Shown: one piece after another, positions 2,987 through 7,890 of the stretch
How the letters are laid out: each line of letters begins with the position of its first letter
Position numbering within the stretch: position 1 is the first letter of the stretch
NCBI RefSeq assembly: GCF_000337775.1
Contig: NZ_AOLQ01000069.1
Location: 434,001 to 498,000 of the forward strand
Direction: 5' to 3'
DNA from: Haloarcula vallismortis ATCC 29715
GTDB taxonomy: Archaea; Halobacteriota; Halobacteria; Halobacteriales; Haloarculaceae
DNA length: 64,000 bases
The notes under the pieces: model-generated
Seen by the model: the letters and a program-made list of their open reading frames with translations, nothing else
What the model was told of the DNA's origin: nothing
Database searches by the model: none
Program-made: the position numbers and the translations under genes

Positions 2987-3622
2987 TCACCGCGCCGGGT
3001 GGTCCGAAACGAACTGCTTGAGGATCTGCTCTTCCGCGCGGTGGAGGGTTTCACTGCAGGTGGATTTCGCGATACCGACCCGGTCCGCCAGTTCCGTCAA
3101 CGAGCACTCCCGCGGTGTGTCGTAGTAACCCGCCTCGATGGCTTCCTCGACCAGTTCAAGCTGGCTCTCGGTGAGTACCTGCTCGCTTTCGAGGTGCTGC
3201 CGGATGCGGTCGACGCTGAAAGAGATGCCGAACTCCTCCAGTTGCTCGCCGAGTTCGGAGAGCCGTTCTTGTGGGGCTGAAATGTCCCAGACGGCCTCGC
3301 CGTTCGAGAGCGTAAACGGCATCTCCAGTGGGACGCCCGAACCCTGAACCGGGAAGAGCAAGAGCGGCATCGACGTCTCGAACTGGACCAGCGCGCTGTC
3401 GTCACGGTGTGAGAGTATCTCCAGCGTGGTGACCGACTCCCGGTTCTCGATGTCGCGGAGCACCGCCGGAAGGTCTGCTGCCGTTATCTCTGCCAGCCCG
3501 ACGCCGGAGTCCTCGCCGGGGAGCGCCGAGAGGATTCGGAACGTCGCGTCGTCGTACGTGCGCGACACGTCGCCGATCCAGATCTCGTCTGGAATCGTGA
3601 GCGTGAGTTCTGCGTGTGGCAT
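2987..3622 (-). CDS. Bacterio-opsin-activator-type HTH_10 transcriptional regulator
   Basis: DNA-binding regulator, 211 aa. The N-terminal part (1-145) is a ligand- or signal-binding region of the Bat/GAF-like type, and the C-terminal ~150-205 is the HTH_10 domain (LTESQLELVEEAIEAGYYD followed by LTELADRVGIAKST). Unlike the regulator at 5783 it has no N-terminal Cys cluster; its only Cys residues, 173 and 189, lie in the HTH. Two CGAA-N4-TTCG palindromes lie 10 and 44 bases upstream of the start, so the gene is probably itself under control of, or autoregulated through, that operator. The target genes and signal are unknown. It faces away from the SRPBCC gene at 3813. Confidence 0.88.
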   Translation of the reverse strand: MPHAELTLTIPDEIWIGDVSRTYDDATFRILSALPGEDSGVGLAEITAADLPAVLRDIENRESVTTLEILSHRDDSALVQFETSMPLLLFPVQGSGVPLEMPFTLSNGEAVWDISAPQERLSELGEQLEEFGISFSVDRIRQHLESEQVLTESQLELVEEAIEAGYYDTPRECSLTELADRVGIAKSTCSETLHRAEEQILKQFVSDHPAR

Positions 3623-3631
3623 GGGTGTATC

Positions 3632-3643
3632 CGAATATATTCG
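3632..3643. promoter_or_regulatory. CGAA-N4-TTCG palindrome (site 1)
   Basis: Perfect 12-base palindrome CGAATATATTCG, ten bases upstream of the HTH_10 regulator start at 3622. It matches the inverted repeat I recall as the recognition site of the haloarchaeal anaerobic regulators NarO and DmsR. The position so close to the start would suit repression or autoregulation better than activation. Confidence 0.6.
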
Positions 3644-3665
3644 CCAGCCCCTGCGGCCCTACTCC

Positions 3666-3677
3666 CGAACATGTTCG
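3666..3677. promoter_or_regulatory. CGAA-N4-TTCG palindrome (site 2)
   Basis: CGAACATGTTCG, a perfect palindrome preceded by CC, 44 bases upstream of the regulator start at 3622. The distance places it just upstream of where the TATA/BRE of a leaderless promoter would be, the usual position for an activator. The divergent gene at 3813 is more than 130 bases away and has its own TATA-like element. Confidence 0.7.
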
Positions 3678-3783
3678 TCCACCGGTGGCTGGGATAAGAA
3701 CTTTGGGGAGACTGCTGTGCGCCATCGGGTCGGCCTCGGTCACGCAAGACCGATTTGCCGAACACCTTCGGCCATGGCGAACG

Positions 3784-3789
3784 CTTATT
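3784..3789 (+). promoter_or_regulatory. TATA-like element of the SRPBCC gene
   Basis: CTTATT lies 24-29 bases before ATG 3813. This fits a leaderless haloarchaeal transcript and decides for ATG 3813 over the in-frame ATG at 3774, which would place the TATA element inside the coding region. Confidence 0.5.
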
Positions 3790-3812
3790 CCGTCGGCCAT
3801 TCGCCGTCCGAT

Positions 3813-4226
3813 ATGGAACGCGTCTCCCTGACCCGGACGGTCCCGGCCGACCCAGAGACAGTCATCGACCTGATAACCGACGTGGTGCCGTTCATGCGCG
3901 CGGCGGGGTTCGACGAAGTCACACTTGATGGGGACGACCTCACCATCAAGAACCGTGTCGGACTGTTCGAAATCCAACTGGACCTCGAAGTCGTCGAGAC
4001 AGACGCCGTATTACGGTACGAACAGCGAGAGGGCATCTTCGAATCGATGATGACGGAGTACACCATTGAGGCCGTCGATGACGGGGCCGACGTAACGGCG
4101 ACGACGGAGTATAGCGCCCTTGACCTCCCGGTGCTCGGCGAGATGCTCGATACAACTGTCATCGCGCGACAGCGGACGAAGGAACTGAACAAGCAGTTCG
4201 ACTGGCTCATCGAACAGGTCTCGTAG
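3813..4226 (+). CDS. SRPBCC (START/polyketide-cyclase-like) family protein
   Basis: Small soluble 137-aa protein with the pattern of the SRPBCC fold. It begins SLTRTVPADPETVIDLITD, the usual first strand and helix that lines a hydrophobic ligand cavity, and ends in a long C-terminal helix (RQRTKELNKQFDWLIEQV). Family members bind lipids, quinones or other hydrophobic ligands or act as cyclases; nothing here identifies the ligand. It lies between the HTH_10 regulator (divergent) and the RiPP precursor (same strand, 111-base gap holding its own operator), so it is probably a separate transcript. An upstream in-frame ATG at 3774 would add 13 residues but is not favoured. Confidence 0.8.
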   Translation: MERVSLTRTVPADPETVIDLITDVVPFMRAAGFDEVTLDGDDLTIKNRVGLFEIQLDLEVVETDAVLRYEQREGIFESMMTEYTIEAVDDGADVTATTEYSALDLPVLGEMLDTTVIARQRTKELNKQFDWLIEQVS

Positions 4227-4287
4227 CGTCGTGTCACAGCGGCCGTTCGAAGGAATCACTCGCTTCCGTTTGTTGAATATAATAACC

Positions 4288-4299
4288 CGAACATATTCG
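4288..4299. promoter_or_regulatory. CGAA-N4-TTCG palindrome (site 3) before the RiPP gene
   Basis: CGAACATATTCG, flanked by CC and GG to make a 16-base inverted repeat (4286-4301). Its inner edge is 39 bases upstream of ATG 4338, exactly the spacing seen at site 4 before the DUF2249 gene. Only a weak TATA-like sequence (GGATACGC, about 4313-4320) follows, as expected for an activator-dependent promoter. Confidence 0.75.
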
Positions 4300-4337
4300 G
4301 GAGAGGACCGAGGGATACGCACCGATAACCGTCATAC

Positions 4338-4643
4338 ATGAGCCATCCCCACGAGGACGTGCCGCCGGTAACGACCGAGGTGCACGACAACTCCTGGTCG
4401 GCGAACCTAGAGACGCCCGCACACGCTGCGGACCCCGATGTGGTCGTCGAACAGGCCATCGACGCCGTCGAGATGACGACGGCTGGGAACCACGTTAATC
4501 TGGTGAGCCACGCAGACCACGGCCACCCCGAGACGTACCTGTTCGACGCGCTCACAGAGGCTTTCGGCGACACGATCACAACTGAGTACGTCCAGCAGTG
4601 TGGCTGTGGCGGCCACGTCACTCGCGTCCACCGGGAGGCATAG
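4338..4643 (+). CDS. CGCGG-family candidate RiPP precursor (radical-SAM-modified)
   Basis: A 101-aa protein with the hallmark Cys88-Gly-Cys90-Gly-Gly near its C-terminus (QQCGCGGHVTRVH). I recognise it as the haloarchaeal CGCGG family of putative radical-SAM-modified peptides. The first ~85 residues are acidic and His-containing (H4, H16, H29, H52, H58, H61, H63) and look like a folded leader or carrier. The two cysteines in the Gly-rich tail are the likely modification site. The stop codon is followed without a gap by the start of the radical SAM gene, so the two are translationally coupled. Expression is probably controlled by the palindrome at 4288. The mature product and function are unknown. 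Confidence 0.82.
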   Translation: MSHPHEDVPPVTTEVHDNSWSANLETPAHAADPDVVVEQAIDAVEMTTAGNHVNLVSHADHGHPETYLFDALTEAFGDTITTEYVQQCGCGGHVTRVHREA

Positions 4644-5717
4644 ATGCGCGGGAAACTCGACCTCGACGAGCAGCCGCTGGTGCTGATCTGGGAGGTGACT
4701 CAGGCCTGCGAACTGGCGTGCAAACACTGCCGAGCTGACGCCCAGCCCCACCGTCATCCCGACGAGCTATCGACGGCGGAGGGGAAGGCGCTGCTAGACC
4801 AGGCCCGCGAGTTCGGCGACGGCCAGCTGGTCGTCCTCTCGGGCGGAGACCCGCTGGCCCGCGAGGACCTCCCGGAGCTCGTCGATTACGGGACCGAGCA
4901 GGGCCTCCGGATGACGCTGACGCCCAGTGGGACGAACTCGCTCACGCGGGACCGACTGGCCGAACTCGACGAGGCCGGACTCCGGCGGCTGGCGCTGTCC
5001 ATCGACGGTGGCGACAGCGAGTCCCACGACAGCTTCCGGGGCGAATCTGGGAGCTTTGCGGCGACAATGGAGGCGGCCGAGGCGGCCCGGAAGCTCGACA
5101 TTCCGCTGCAGATAAACACCACAGTCTGTGCGGAGACGGTCGAGCAACTGCCGGCGATACGGGACCTCGTTGCGGACCTTGATGCGGTGCTGTGGTCGGT
5201 GTTCTTCCTCGTCCCGGTCGGCCGCGGGCGGGTACTGACGCCGATTCCCCCAGAGCGGGCCGAGCGCGTGCTGGAGTGGCTCCACGAGGTCAGCGACGAG
5301 GCGTCGTTCGGTCTCAAAACGACCGAAGCGCCCCACTACCGACGCGTCGCGATACAGCATCAAGACGAGGGTGCCGCCGGACTCAAACGCCGCATGGGTA
5401 TCCGCGCCGGCAAGGGGTTCGCCTTCGTGAGCCACACCGGAGAGGTGTATCCGTCCGGGTTCCTGCCGAAATCGGCCGGCAACGTTCGGGAAGATAGCGT
5501 CGTCGACATCTACCGGGACTCGACGCTGTTCCAGCAGCTCAGGGATGACGACGCGCTGACGGGCAAGTGCGGAGCCTGTCGATACCGAACGGTCTGTGGC
5601 GGCAGTCGGTCGCGGGCGTATGCGACGACGGGAGACCCGCTGGCGGCGGACCCGCTGTGTGACTACCAGCCCGAGGGGTTCGAGGGCCCGGTTCCCGACC
5701 AGCACCCAGCAGATTGA
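4644..5717 (+). CDS. Radical SAM/SPASM-like maturase (TIGR04053-like)
   Basis: Radical S-adenosylmethionine enzyme, 357 aa, probably acting on the CGCGG peptide encoded immediately upstream. The [4Fe-4S] cluster motif is Cys22-x3-Cys26-x2-Cys29 (CELACKHC), followed by the glycine motif LSGGDP. The C-terminal auxiliary region has Cys309, Cys312, Cys318 and Cys339 in the order CGAC-x5-CGGSRSRAY, resembling heme-pathway enzymes NirJ/AhbD, but with Ser where those have a further Cys (CGGCRAR). The residue before VYPSGFLP is also not Cys, so one auxiliary cluster is likely rather than two. It could alternatively modify a tetrapyrrole; the zero-gap coupling to the peptide gene favours a peptide substrate. 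Confidence 0.88.
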   Translation: MRGKLDLDEQPLVLIWEVTQACELACKHCRADAQPHRHPDELSTAEGKALLDQAREFGDGQLVVLSGGDPLAREDLPELVDYGTEQGLRMTLTPSGTNSLTRDRLAELDEAGLRRLALSIDGGDSESHDSFRGESGSFAATMEAAEAARKLDIPLQINTTVCAETVEQLPAIRDLVADLDAVLWSVFFLVPVGRGRVLTPIPPERAERVLEWLHEVSDEASFGLKTTEAPHYRRVAIQHQDEGAAGLKRRMGIRAGKGFAFVSHTGEVYPSGFLPKSAGNVREDSVVDIYRDSTLFQQLRDDDALTGKCGACRYRTVCGGSRSRAYATTGDPLAADPLCDYQPEGFEGPVPDQHPAD

Positions 5718-5752
5718 GGGGATTTTTCACTCCGTGGGAACGCGCCTCGCCC

Positions 5753-5763
5753 GTTTTGTAATG
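5753..5763 (+). promoter_or_regulatory. TATA-like element of the four-Cys regulator gene
   Basis: GTTTTGTAATG lies 20-30 bases before ATG 5783, a leaderless promoter arrangement. No CGAA-N4-TTCG site is present in this 65-base gap, so the regulator appears to be made independently of the operator it may bind. Confidence 0.4.
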
Positions 5764-5782
5764 TGGTGTCACAGTAACTTGT

Positions 5783-6430
5783 ATGAGCGACTCCGGCATC
5801 AGAGTGGAACTATCGGTCGATGCCCCGGGGGCCTGTCCGGTGGCGAGCGTCTCAGACGAGGCGGGCGCGGCCGTGACCGATGTCGCCCGAAGCAGCCCAG
5901 ATGCAGACGGGCAGGTCATCGAAGAGTTCACGGCAACGGGGACCGACGATGCCACAATCGAGGCACGGGGCGATATGGACAAAGTGTTCTCGACGGGCAA
6001 CGGGGCCCGCTACCAGTTCTCACGGTCGCGAACTGAGTGCGTCTGCGAAGCGGTCGAAACGTATGACTGTCCGGTGGCAGATATCCGTGCCGAGGGCGGA
6101 CAGCTCCACCTGACGTTTCACGCTCCCGATGTCGACCGGGTGCGCGCTATCGTGACGCGGCTCAAAGAGCTGTACGATGGCGTCTCGCTCCGCTCGATGC
6201 GCCGAAACGGCGACGTGGACCCGGTGGACTCGATACTGGTCGACCGGAGCAGGCTCACCGACCGGCAGCAAGAAGTGCTCGAAACGGCTGTCGAGATGGG
6301 GTACTTCGAATACCCGAAAGGAGCCAACGCCGGCGACGTGGCGGCGGAACTGGATATCTCCGTCTCGACGTTCGCCGAACACCTCGCCGCCGCCCAGACA
6401 AAGCTGCTTGACAGCATCATCGGGGAGTAG
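5783..6430 (+). CDS. Four-Cys HTH_10 regulator, NarO/DmsR-like
   Basis: Transcription factor of 215 aa. The C-terminal HTH_10 domain (~155-212) reads LTDRQQEVLETAVEMGYFEYP then DVAAELDISVSTFAEHL. The N-terminal half has Cys18 and a Cys86-x-Cys88-x7-Cys96 cluster (ECVCEAVETYDC). Four such cysteines suggest an Fe-S cluster or metal that senses oxygen or redox state, as proposed for haloarchaeal NarO and DmsR, the activators of denitrification and DMSO respiration. The surrounding module carries four CGAA-N4-TTCG palindromes, the operator associated with those regulators, which supports this protein as the local activator. It lies 65 bases after the radical SAM gene and is convergent with the NnrS-like gene. 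Confidence 0.85.
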   Translation: MSDSGIRVELSVDAPGACPVASVSDEAGAAVTDVARSSPDADGQVIEEFTATGTDDATIEARGDMDKVFSTGNGARYQFSRSRTECVCEAVETYDCPVADIRAEGGQLHLTFHAPDVDRVRAIVTRLKELYDGVSLRSMRRNGDVDPVDSILVDRSRLTDRQQEVLETAVEMGYFEYPKGANAGDVAAELDISVSTFAEHLAAAQTKLLDSIIGE

Positions 6431-6441
6431 GTCCCAGAGCG

Positions 6442-7605
6442 TCACGACTGCCACCGGCGAGCGAACGCCGCTATCAGGAGATACGTATAGAGAAGTGCGC
6501 CAAGAACCCCGGCCGCTGTCCCGACCGATTTCATCCAATCGAACCGGCCGACGAGATCAAGTAGCTGTATGCCGAGTCCGCTCCCAAGCAGTGCAATCGA
6601 CAGCAGTGCCGTCCGGTCATCTGCATAGGGCAAGACACCGACCGCCGGCGGGTAGAACTGGAACGCCGCCCCGACCACAGTGAGTCCGAGAAAGCCCGAC
6701 AGCATGGCCCGATAGTGCGCGCTGACCAGCGCAGACTCCCGTCCGGTGACGGCGATAGTCAGTCCGAGTCCGATACCGACGACGCCGGCCGCGGCTGCCA
6801 CGAGAACCGCATAGAACCCCACACGGCGTCGCTCCGACCGCAAAAAGAGGGTCAGATACGACAGCGCAAAGCTCACGACCGCGACAGCTTCGACGACGCC
6901 GCCGACGAGGAGGAGCCGGTGGTCGAACAGTCCGAACCCGAGCAGCGCCGGACCGATGGCACCGGCCGCGACGATGAGGGCGACGACCGGGCGTGGCACC
7001 GCCGCGACCAGAAACCGTGGAAACAGCCGGAAGCCGACACCGAAGACGAACAGCGCGGCTGTCCCCGCAGCGAGCAAGTGCGACAGTTGCTGTGGGAGAA
7101 CTGACTCGAAACCAACAGCCGTGGCGAGCGCGCCGCCCGCAGCGAATACGAGATAGCCGAGCGCTATCGGGACCGCGACGTTAGCGACTCTATCAACCGG
7201 CTCCCGATGGGCGTTCGGACCGCCGGTCCCCGTCGCCGCACCGGTGATGTTGTCACGAATCGTCCACCCGAGCGTGCCGAGAAAGACTGCGACGCCGCCG
7301 ACCCAGAGCGCGGTTCCGACGGGCTGGAGCCACGGCGGCCCGAGCGGTGCGAGCGCCAGCCCTGTTGTGCCGAAGACGGACAGCGGAAACTGGGCAGCAG
7401 GTCCCAGTTCCCACGCGAGGTCCCGGTCGAAGTACGCCGGCACGAGTGCGTAGGCCTTCCCGAACAGGACGTGCAGGACGAATCCGTAGAGGCCCAGCGT
7501 GACAACGACGCGGCGGGGCGCGGCAACCGCCATTGCGACGTGAAAGCCGACGAAAAACAGCGCGCTGACGGTGACGAACCACCGCGAAGCGCGCTCGGCT
7601 CGCAT
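6442..7605 (-). CDS. NnrS-like multi-pass membrane protein
   Basis: Integral membrane protein of 387 aa with about twelve hydrophobic segments and few loops. Histidines sit inside or at the edge of predicted helices: His22 (FFVGFHVAM), His45 (GFVLHVLFGKAY), His176 (QQLSHLLAAG) and His297 (VSAHYRAML). This resembles NnrS and short heme-copper-oxidase-I-like proteins, which bind heme and copper and are linked to nitric oxide stress. Similarity is by pattern only, so the name is tentative. It is the second gene of a two-gene operon after the DUF2249 gene (one base between stop and start) and so shares the palindrome-controlled promoter at 7879. Confidence 0.68.
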   Translation of the reverse strand: MRAERASRWFVTVSALFFVGFHVAMAVAAPRRVVVTLGLYGFVLHVLFGKAYALVPAYFDRDLAWELGPAAQFPLSVFGTTGLALAPLGPPWLQPVGTALWVGGVAVFLGTLGWTIRDNITGAATGTGGPNAHREPVDRVANVAVPIALGYLVFAAGGALATAVGFESVLPQQLSHLLAAGTAALFVFGVGFRLFPRFLVAAVPRPVVALIVAAGAIGPALLGFGLFDHRLLLVGGVVEAVAVVSFALSYLTLFLRSERRRVGFYAVLVAAAAGVVGIGLGLTIAVTGRESALVSAHYRAMLSGFLGLTVVGAAFQFYPPAVGVLPYADDRTALLSIALLGSGLGIQLLDLVGRFDWMKSVGTAAGVLGALLYTYLLIAAFARRWQS

Positions 7606-7606
7606 C

Positions 7607-7840
7607 TCACTCCGGCCGGATTGTGACGTGCCACTCCTCGTCGGCGACCTGTTCCGTATCGTACTGGTACCCCTTCTTCGAGAGTACGTCGTACAGTGGC
7701 ACCGGTTCGAAACTGTTCACCAGCCTGAGCGCCTCGCTTTCGTCGATATCGCCAAGCGCGCTCATGATCTGTTCGAACGGTTCTCCGTCGGCCTCCCGAA
7801 CGTCGAGTTCTTGTACCGACTGTTGGCTGTCTGTGCTCAT
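7607..7840 (-). CDS. DUF2249 domain protein
   Basis: Small 77-aa protein covering a single DUF2249 domain (SirA/TusA-like fold). It starts the LDVREADGEPFEQIMSAL pattern and continues through EALRLVNSFEPVPLYDVL to GYQYDTEQVADEEWHV. It lacks the CPxP motif of true TusA sulfur carriers; the equivalent position is EPVPL. DUF2249 genes commonly sit beside nitrogen-oxide or respiratory genes in haloarchaea, but the biochemical role is not known. It is the first gene of the operon with the NnrS-like protein. The promoter carries a CGAA-N4-TTCG palindrome 39 bases before the start. Confidence 0.85.
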   Translation of the reverse strand: MSTDSQQSVQELDVREADGEPFEQIMSALGDIDESEALRLVNSFEPVPLYDVLSKKGYQYDTEQVADEEWHVTIRPE

Positions 7841-7878
7841 ACATTTGATGATGGTCCCAGTCAGTCAGATATTTCTCC

Positions 7879-7890
7879 CGAACGTGTTCG
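7879..7890. promoter_or_regulatory. CGAA-N4-TTCG palindrome (site 4) before the DUF2249 operon
   Basis: CGAACGTGTTCG preceded by CC, with its inner edge 39 bases upstream of the DUF2249 start at 7840. Sequence and spacing match site 3, so the RiPP operon and the DUF2249/NnrS operon are predicted to be co-regulated. Confidence 0.75.

Follow-up and report, generated by a model that had tools for sequence, protein, structure and literature searches.

QhpD, a radical SAM enzyme, crosslinks a small folded protein, a subunit of the quinohemoprotein amine dehydrogenase, which then works whole. The locus described here resembles the QhpD/QhpC system in that a SPASM enzyme stands beside a protein of about 100 residues with conserved cysteines, and differs from it in that no quinohemoprotein subunits are recognised near the pair and the small protein persists in genomes without the enzyme. 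On the enzyme side the closest described system is AhbD (model TIGR04545), represented by HVO_2144 of Haloferax volcanii and Mbar_A1458 of Methanosarcina barkeri; the enzyme of this locus has the radical SAM and C-terminal cysteine motif of AhbD and lacks further cysteines specific to the methanogen enzyme. HVO_2144 shares 42% identity with Mbar_A1458, an enzyme of proven function, and ahbD is present in two thirds of haloarchaea (PMC8305020). Deletion of ahbD (HVO_2144) in H. volcanii strongly reduces denitrifying and DMSO-respiring growth and leaves aerobic growth unaffected, and protoheme rescues the mutant fully on DMSO and partially on nitrate (PMC5746218). A CGAA-N4-TTCG palindrome has been described for the denitrification genes and ahbD of H. 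volcanii (PMC5746218), and the form given for H. mediterranei is CGAAYATDKTYG (PMC11218638); action of a regulator at this box upon a drop in oxygen has been published for nirK-type promoters. NCBI curates the families to which our pair belongs as a putative modified peptide and its maturase, and we found no published study on either CGCGG proteins or TIGR04053 in the literature.

The window, by which we mean the whole stretch of 64,000 nucleotides that was analysed, is haloarchaeal DNA, with species of Haloarcula as its relatives at 87-94% identity, and it carries the pair as follows:

4338-4643, + strand: gene of the CGCGG protein (101 aa, TIGR03995)
4599-4613, + strand: codons of Cys88-Gly-Cys90-Gly-Gly, in the predicted loop joining the last two beta strands
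4634-4638, + strand: GGAGG, a ribosome-binding-like sequence read directly, within the 3' end of the CGCGG gene and 5 nt ahead of the radical SAM start
4644-5717, + strand: gene of the radical SAM/SPASM enzyme (357 aa, TIGR04053), most likely the S-adenosylmethionine-dependent heme synthase of the anaerobic route, AhbD
4707-4730, + strand: radical SAM cluster motif C22-x3-C26-x2-C29
5568-5660, + strand: single auxiliary-cluster motif C309-x2-C312-x5-C318-x20-C339

Both reading frames pass their curated family cut-offs, the small protein with 137 bits against TIGR03995 (cut-off 70), of which it is a clear member by sequence, and the enzyme with 511 bits against TIGR04053 (cut-off 395), so that a chance pair of open reading frames is ruled out and the family assignment made by the first-pass annotation stands. 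The absence of any base between the two genes, which it had also reported, is exact: the stop codon TAG (4641-4643) abuts the ATG at 4644. The same zero-gap pair occurs in the named Haloarcula loci (L032-L037), and the operon-like coupling that had been proposed is supported. The GGAGG lying inside the upstream gene suggests that the radical SAM gene is translationally coupled to it. Among the 104 genomes for which both genes are listed, the spacing is at most 1.6 kb in 39 and at most 15 kb in 85.

The small protein had been read as a RiPP precursor with a leader-like part containing seven His and a CGCGG tail. The motif was identified correctly and does lie near the C-terminus, but it is not the extreme end, being followed by nine residues (HVTRVHREA), and eight histidines rather than seven precede Cys88 (positions 3, 5, 16, 29, 52, 58, 61 and 63), with His93 and His98 following Cys90. 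In an alignment of 101 distinct sequences, conservation extends over the whole length of the protein and shows no split into leader and core: 10 of the 17 invariant columns lie outside residues 88-101, the HVTRV after the motif is among the most conserved stretches, and three blocks stand out, namely H16-D-N-S-W-S-A-N-L-E25, T47..G50-N-H52-V-N-L-V-T-H58..G62-H63-P64 and Y84-V-E-Q-C88-G-C90-G-G-H93-V-T-R96-V, with H16, H52, H58, H63, C88, C90 and H93 invariant or nearly so. The AlphaFold2 model run on this family alignment (mean pLDDT 92.2, pTM 0.84, with uncertainty confined to roughly the first ten residues) predicts strands at 20-24, 52-57, 80-87 and 93-99 and helices at 27-31, 33-45 and 69-79, in the domain order b-a-b-a-b-b. 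CGCGG (88-92) is the turn between strands 80-87 and 93-99, and the chain stops right after the final strand, so that no free core peptide is left. The family profile matched no sequence of a solved structure, and Foldseek of the model against the PDB returned weak half-Rossmann/IF3-like matches, none with E < 0.001. A divergent subfamily in one genus (g18; loci L159, L160 and L161 of genomes G108, G015 and G009, which have no TIGR04053) ends in QCGCGGYVYRVE, with a shortened loop and Y in place of H93.

The NirJ/AhbD-like auxiliary region noticed in the enzyme by the first-pass annotation is borne out by scores of 343 bits to TIGR04545 and 232 bits to TIGR04055, though both fall below their cut-offs (500 bits in the case of TIGR04545). 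No listed haloarchaeal gene reaches the TIGR04545 cut-off, although ahbD of H. volcanii has genetic support. Compared over its full length, the enzyme shares 38-45% identity with methanogen AhbD, and in a tree set against the haloarchaeal AhbC-type (TIGR04347) group its clade is sister to methanogen AhbD (100/100), a placement on long branches that counts as support rather than proof. This genome has no second AhbD-like gene, the other strong match belonging to TIGR04347, and it also encodes a ChdC-type domain, which belongs to the aerobic route. What sets it apart from the AhbD of methanogens, besides the missed cut-off and its filing by NCBI as TIGR04053, is the lack of several cysteines invariant there (columns 228, 253, 260, 271 and 321) and of a histidine at 185; the missing residues together with the missed cut-off mean that its substrate could differ. 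In two genomes without CGCGG (G001 and G007), TIGR04053 is accompanied by another AhbD-like radical SAM gene, which scores about 306 bits against TIGR04545.

Gene order ties the TIGR04053 family to the published genetics. Three loci (L183, L185 and L186) have the order nirK-rSAM-halocyanin-x-qNor-CGCGG-x-halocyanin, comprising nirK, TIGR04053, halocyanin, qNor, CGCGG, a second cupredoxin and BAT with one or two small genes interspersed, and this order equals that of HVO_2141/2144/2145/2147/2150 (PMC5746218). HVO_2144 shares both gene order and the box with the TIGR04053 gene. Matching locus-number spacing would put a CGCGG gene beside norB in H. volcanii, probably on the side towards HVO_2150; we found no discussion of HVO_2148/2149 in the literature. 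Across our sample of 294 Halobacteria genomes, TIGR04053 is over its cut-off in 207 (209 by the E-value threshold used for the tables), which agrees with the published two-thirds share of ahbD (PMC8305020). From gene order and gene count we infer that the window enzyme is orthologous to HVO_2144, and gene order combined with the published genetics makes it most likely AhbD; judging from the phenotype of the H. volcanii deletion mutant (PMC5746218), it would convert iron-coproporphyrin III to heme b.

The surroundings of the pair contain the following genes and boxes:

2987-3622, - strand: BAT/HTH_10 regulator (Pfam)
3632-3643 and 3666-3677: boxes just upstream of the BAT/HTH_10 regulator gene
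3759-3770: box upstream of the SRPBCC gene
3813-4226, + strand: SRPBCC-type (Polyketide_cyc2) protein, by domain match
4288-4299, + strand: CGAACATATTCG palindrome, 38 bp ahead of the start codon of CGCGG, fitting the haloarchaeal denitrification box (CGAA-X4-TTCG / CGAAYATDKTYG)
5783-6430, + strand: DmsR-like/HTH_10 regulator adjoining the pair (Pfam DmsR_N, 154 bits, and HTH_10)
6442-7605, - strand: hydrophobic 387-aa protein with no Pfam or NCBIfam match, of a family recurrent in CGCGG neighbourhoods
7607-7840, - strand: DUF2249 protein, with the same modelled b-a-b-a-b-b element order as the CGCGG protein
7879-7890, + strand: CGAACGTGTTCG box upstream of the DUF2249 gene

Five CGAA-N4-TTCG boxes thus fall within 3632-7890, and the whole window has 8 against 1.8 expected, a number reached in 0 of 100 shuffles, which upholds the earlier suggestion of an anaerobic-type regulon. 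The association recurs across the family: a box lies within about 220 bp upstream of CGCGG in 62 of the 101 distinct loci, against about 5% expected from the box density in the same loci, and in most of these 62 a distance of 30-100 bp separates it from the estimated start. The conserved upstream palindrome would place the CGCGG locus in the haloarchaeal denitrification (NarO/DmsR-box) regulon, induction itself being predicted; we found no published expression value for a CGCGG gene in the literature. Near nirK in this genome there are two CGAA-N4-TTCG sites, one of them inside the gene, and no obvious promoter box, and near qNor no such site was found; common box control of CGCGG with nirK and qNor in this strain is therefore not claimed. 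About ten Halorubrum loci (among L083-L099) have no denitrification box, and there a TbsP-like regulator and a probable aldehyde dehydrogenase follow CGCGG (0.7-0.8 kb downstream), which suggests other control in that lineage.

DUF2249 (PF10006) is a regular neighbour of CGCGG, with a denitrification box upstream of both genes in the window, and it shares with TusA/SirA-like b-a-b-a-b-b proteins the element order modelled for the CGCGG protein; it differs in lacking the CGCGG hairpin and the histidine pattern, and the fold matches are weak. The model of the DUF2249 protein itself weakly matches TusA/SirA-like structures (3lvj, 3hz7 and 8k1r) and the IF3 C-terminal domain, none below E 0.001. 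Homology between the two families is not claimed: the element order is alike, but the hhalign score is 15.2 (E 0.069) and unrelated controls reach 19.4.

An above-cut-off copy of CGCGG is found in 199 of the 294 genomes. Sub-cut-off matches in six others (G061, G121, G124, G193, G233 and G251) proved to be fragments or false matches and do not enter the co-occurrence counts, three of them (L162 in G193, L164 in G233 and L165 in G061) being short remnants that look like decayed genes. With these removed, 179 genomes have both CGCGG and TIGR04053, 20 have CGCGG only, 30 have TIGR04053 only and 65 have neither, so that CGCGG is found in 179/209 genomes with the enzyme (86%) and in 20/85 without it (24%). 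The conservation of the pair, which had been put forward as a check on the earlier reading, therefore holds as strong co-occurrence but not as adjacency, the two genes often not standing side by side. CGCGG tracks nitrite or NO reductase as closely as it does the enzyme: it occurs in 179/200 genomes with either nirK or qNor (90%) against 20/94 with neither (21%), or, taken separately, in 151 of the 161 with nirK (TIGR02376) and 148 of the 163 with the quinol-type NO reductase (PF22085). The association with nirK/qNor is present within genera (Cochran-Mantel-Haenszel z 8.2), and in a joint logistic fit for CGCGG the enzyme, nirK and qNor each add. Among enzyme-bearing genomes, CGCGG is present in 168/176 with nirK or qNor and in 11/33 with neither.

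The 20 genomes that have CGCGG and no enzyme hold 23 intact copies, all of which keep both cysteines (22 as CGCGG and one as CNCGG), and most of which keep the remaining invariant residues too. Residues that serve for modification by this enzyme would be expected to relax once the enzyme is lost. The neighbours of the enzyme-less copies often still include qNor, halocyanin-type cupredoxins, DUF2249, BAT/HTH_10 regulators and a COX1-like membrane protein. One such genome (G239, loci L172-L174) has six CGCGG genes on two contigs, one copy being the CNCGG variant, with DUF2249, BAT, COX1-like, cupin and succinate-dehydrogenase-like Fe-S genes as neighbours.

These observations can be read in several ways. 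That the protein is a true RiPP, in which a leader precedes a C-terminal CGCGG core and the core, once modified, is cleaved off and released to act as a small metallophore or redox peptide, has in its favour the curated name TIGR03995 (CGCGG putative rSAM-modified RiPP) and the adjoining radical SAM/SPASM enzyme; we nevertheless consider it very improbable and the curated label, which itself says 'putative', probably wrong, because the tested features do not fit a RiPP precursor. The compact predicted fold holds the motif inside the sheet, the supposed leader is conserved as much as the supposed core, the protein with both cysteines persists without the enzyme, no protease or exporter was recognised among the annotated recurrent neighbours in CGCGG neighbourhoods, and the partner is most likely AhbD. 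The folded protein could instead be altered and work whole, as with QhpD, TIGR04053 crosslinking or otherwise changing the CGCGG loop, for example by a thioether at Cys88 or Cys90. The strong co-occurrence and clustering of the two genes (within 15 kb in 85/104 genomes, and as a zero-gap operon in Haloarcula) are what a substrate and its enzyme would be expected to show, the CxC in the hairpin is invariant and the enzyme is of SPASM type; set against this are the 20 genomes that keep CGCGG and its cysteines without the enzyme, the 30 with the enzyme and no CGCGG, and the fact that the closest characterised relatives of the enzyme act on porphyrins and that heme rescues the H. volcanii mutant, so that we regard such a modification as unlikely.

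Somewhat less likely still is a dedicated partner of AhbD that would bind coproheme or heme through His/Cys ligands and carry the product to NO reductase and cytochromes, or feed electrons to AhbD, with no covalent change. The operon with an AhbD-like gene in Haloarcula, the co-occurrence with that gene and with the heme enzyme qNor, and the many invariant histidines speak for it; but CGCGG is missing in 22/33 enzyme genomes with neither nirK nor qNor and present in the 20 without the enzyme, and it is therefore not an obligate partner of AhbD. We favour, with a probability of about 0.62, the reading that the pair is an anaerobic/denitrification module coupling AhbD to a small folded His/Cys accessory protein and is not a RiPP cassette. 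Against this preferred reading stand the missed AhbD cut-off and missing residues of the enzyme, the only partial restoration of denitrifying growth of H. volcanii by heme (PMC5746218), the co-occurrence and clustering of the pair in the manner of a substrate and an enzyme, as which NCBI curates them, and the nirK and qNor loci of this genome without an obvious promoter box.

Under the denitrification-module reading, a drop in oxygen would cause a BAT/NarO/DmsR-type regulator to act at CGAA-N4-TTCG and switch on the coupled transcript, from which the CGCGG and enzyme genes would be expressed together. AhbD would then use radical SAM chemistry to decarboxylate iron-coproporphyrin III, yielding heme b, under conditions in which the O2/peroxide-dependent ChdC (PitA) cannot act, providing O2-independent heme b for qNor and cytochromes. 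The CGCGG protein would be a small cytoplasmic folded protein acting uncut, with no release of a peptide, in which the invariant histidines and the cysteines at the CGCGG-H hairpin probably form a metal or NO-reactive site, and it would serve nitrite/NO respiration as a metal- or heme-handling or NO-responsive accessory factor. Both the site and the accessory role are probable on the strength of conservation and genome context, and the redox or metal role, rather than that of an antibiotic, proposed in the first pass is to this extent supported. A further-reaching proposal, which we offer tentatively and think doubtful, is that this small folded His/Cys protein is a new kind of denitrification factor of most denitrifying haloarchaea, through which the anaerobic heme synthesis that AhbD carries out would be linked to assembling or protecting the nitrite/NO reductases, possibly with a metal, a heme or a radical-SAM crosslink in the loop.

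The sequence family was already catalogued; what is new is the probable error in its functional label and the probable place of the protein in haloarchaeal denitrification. For the haloarchaeal part of TIGR04053, we suggest renaming as AhbD. The CGCGG gene is present in about two thirds of the sampled haloarchaeal genomes, and few accessory factors of the haloarchaeal nitrite/NO step are known; if the CGCGG protein is a member of the denitrification regulon, an orphan peptide becomes a specific, testable gene of that step.
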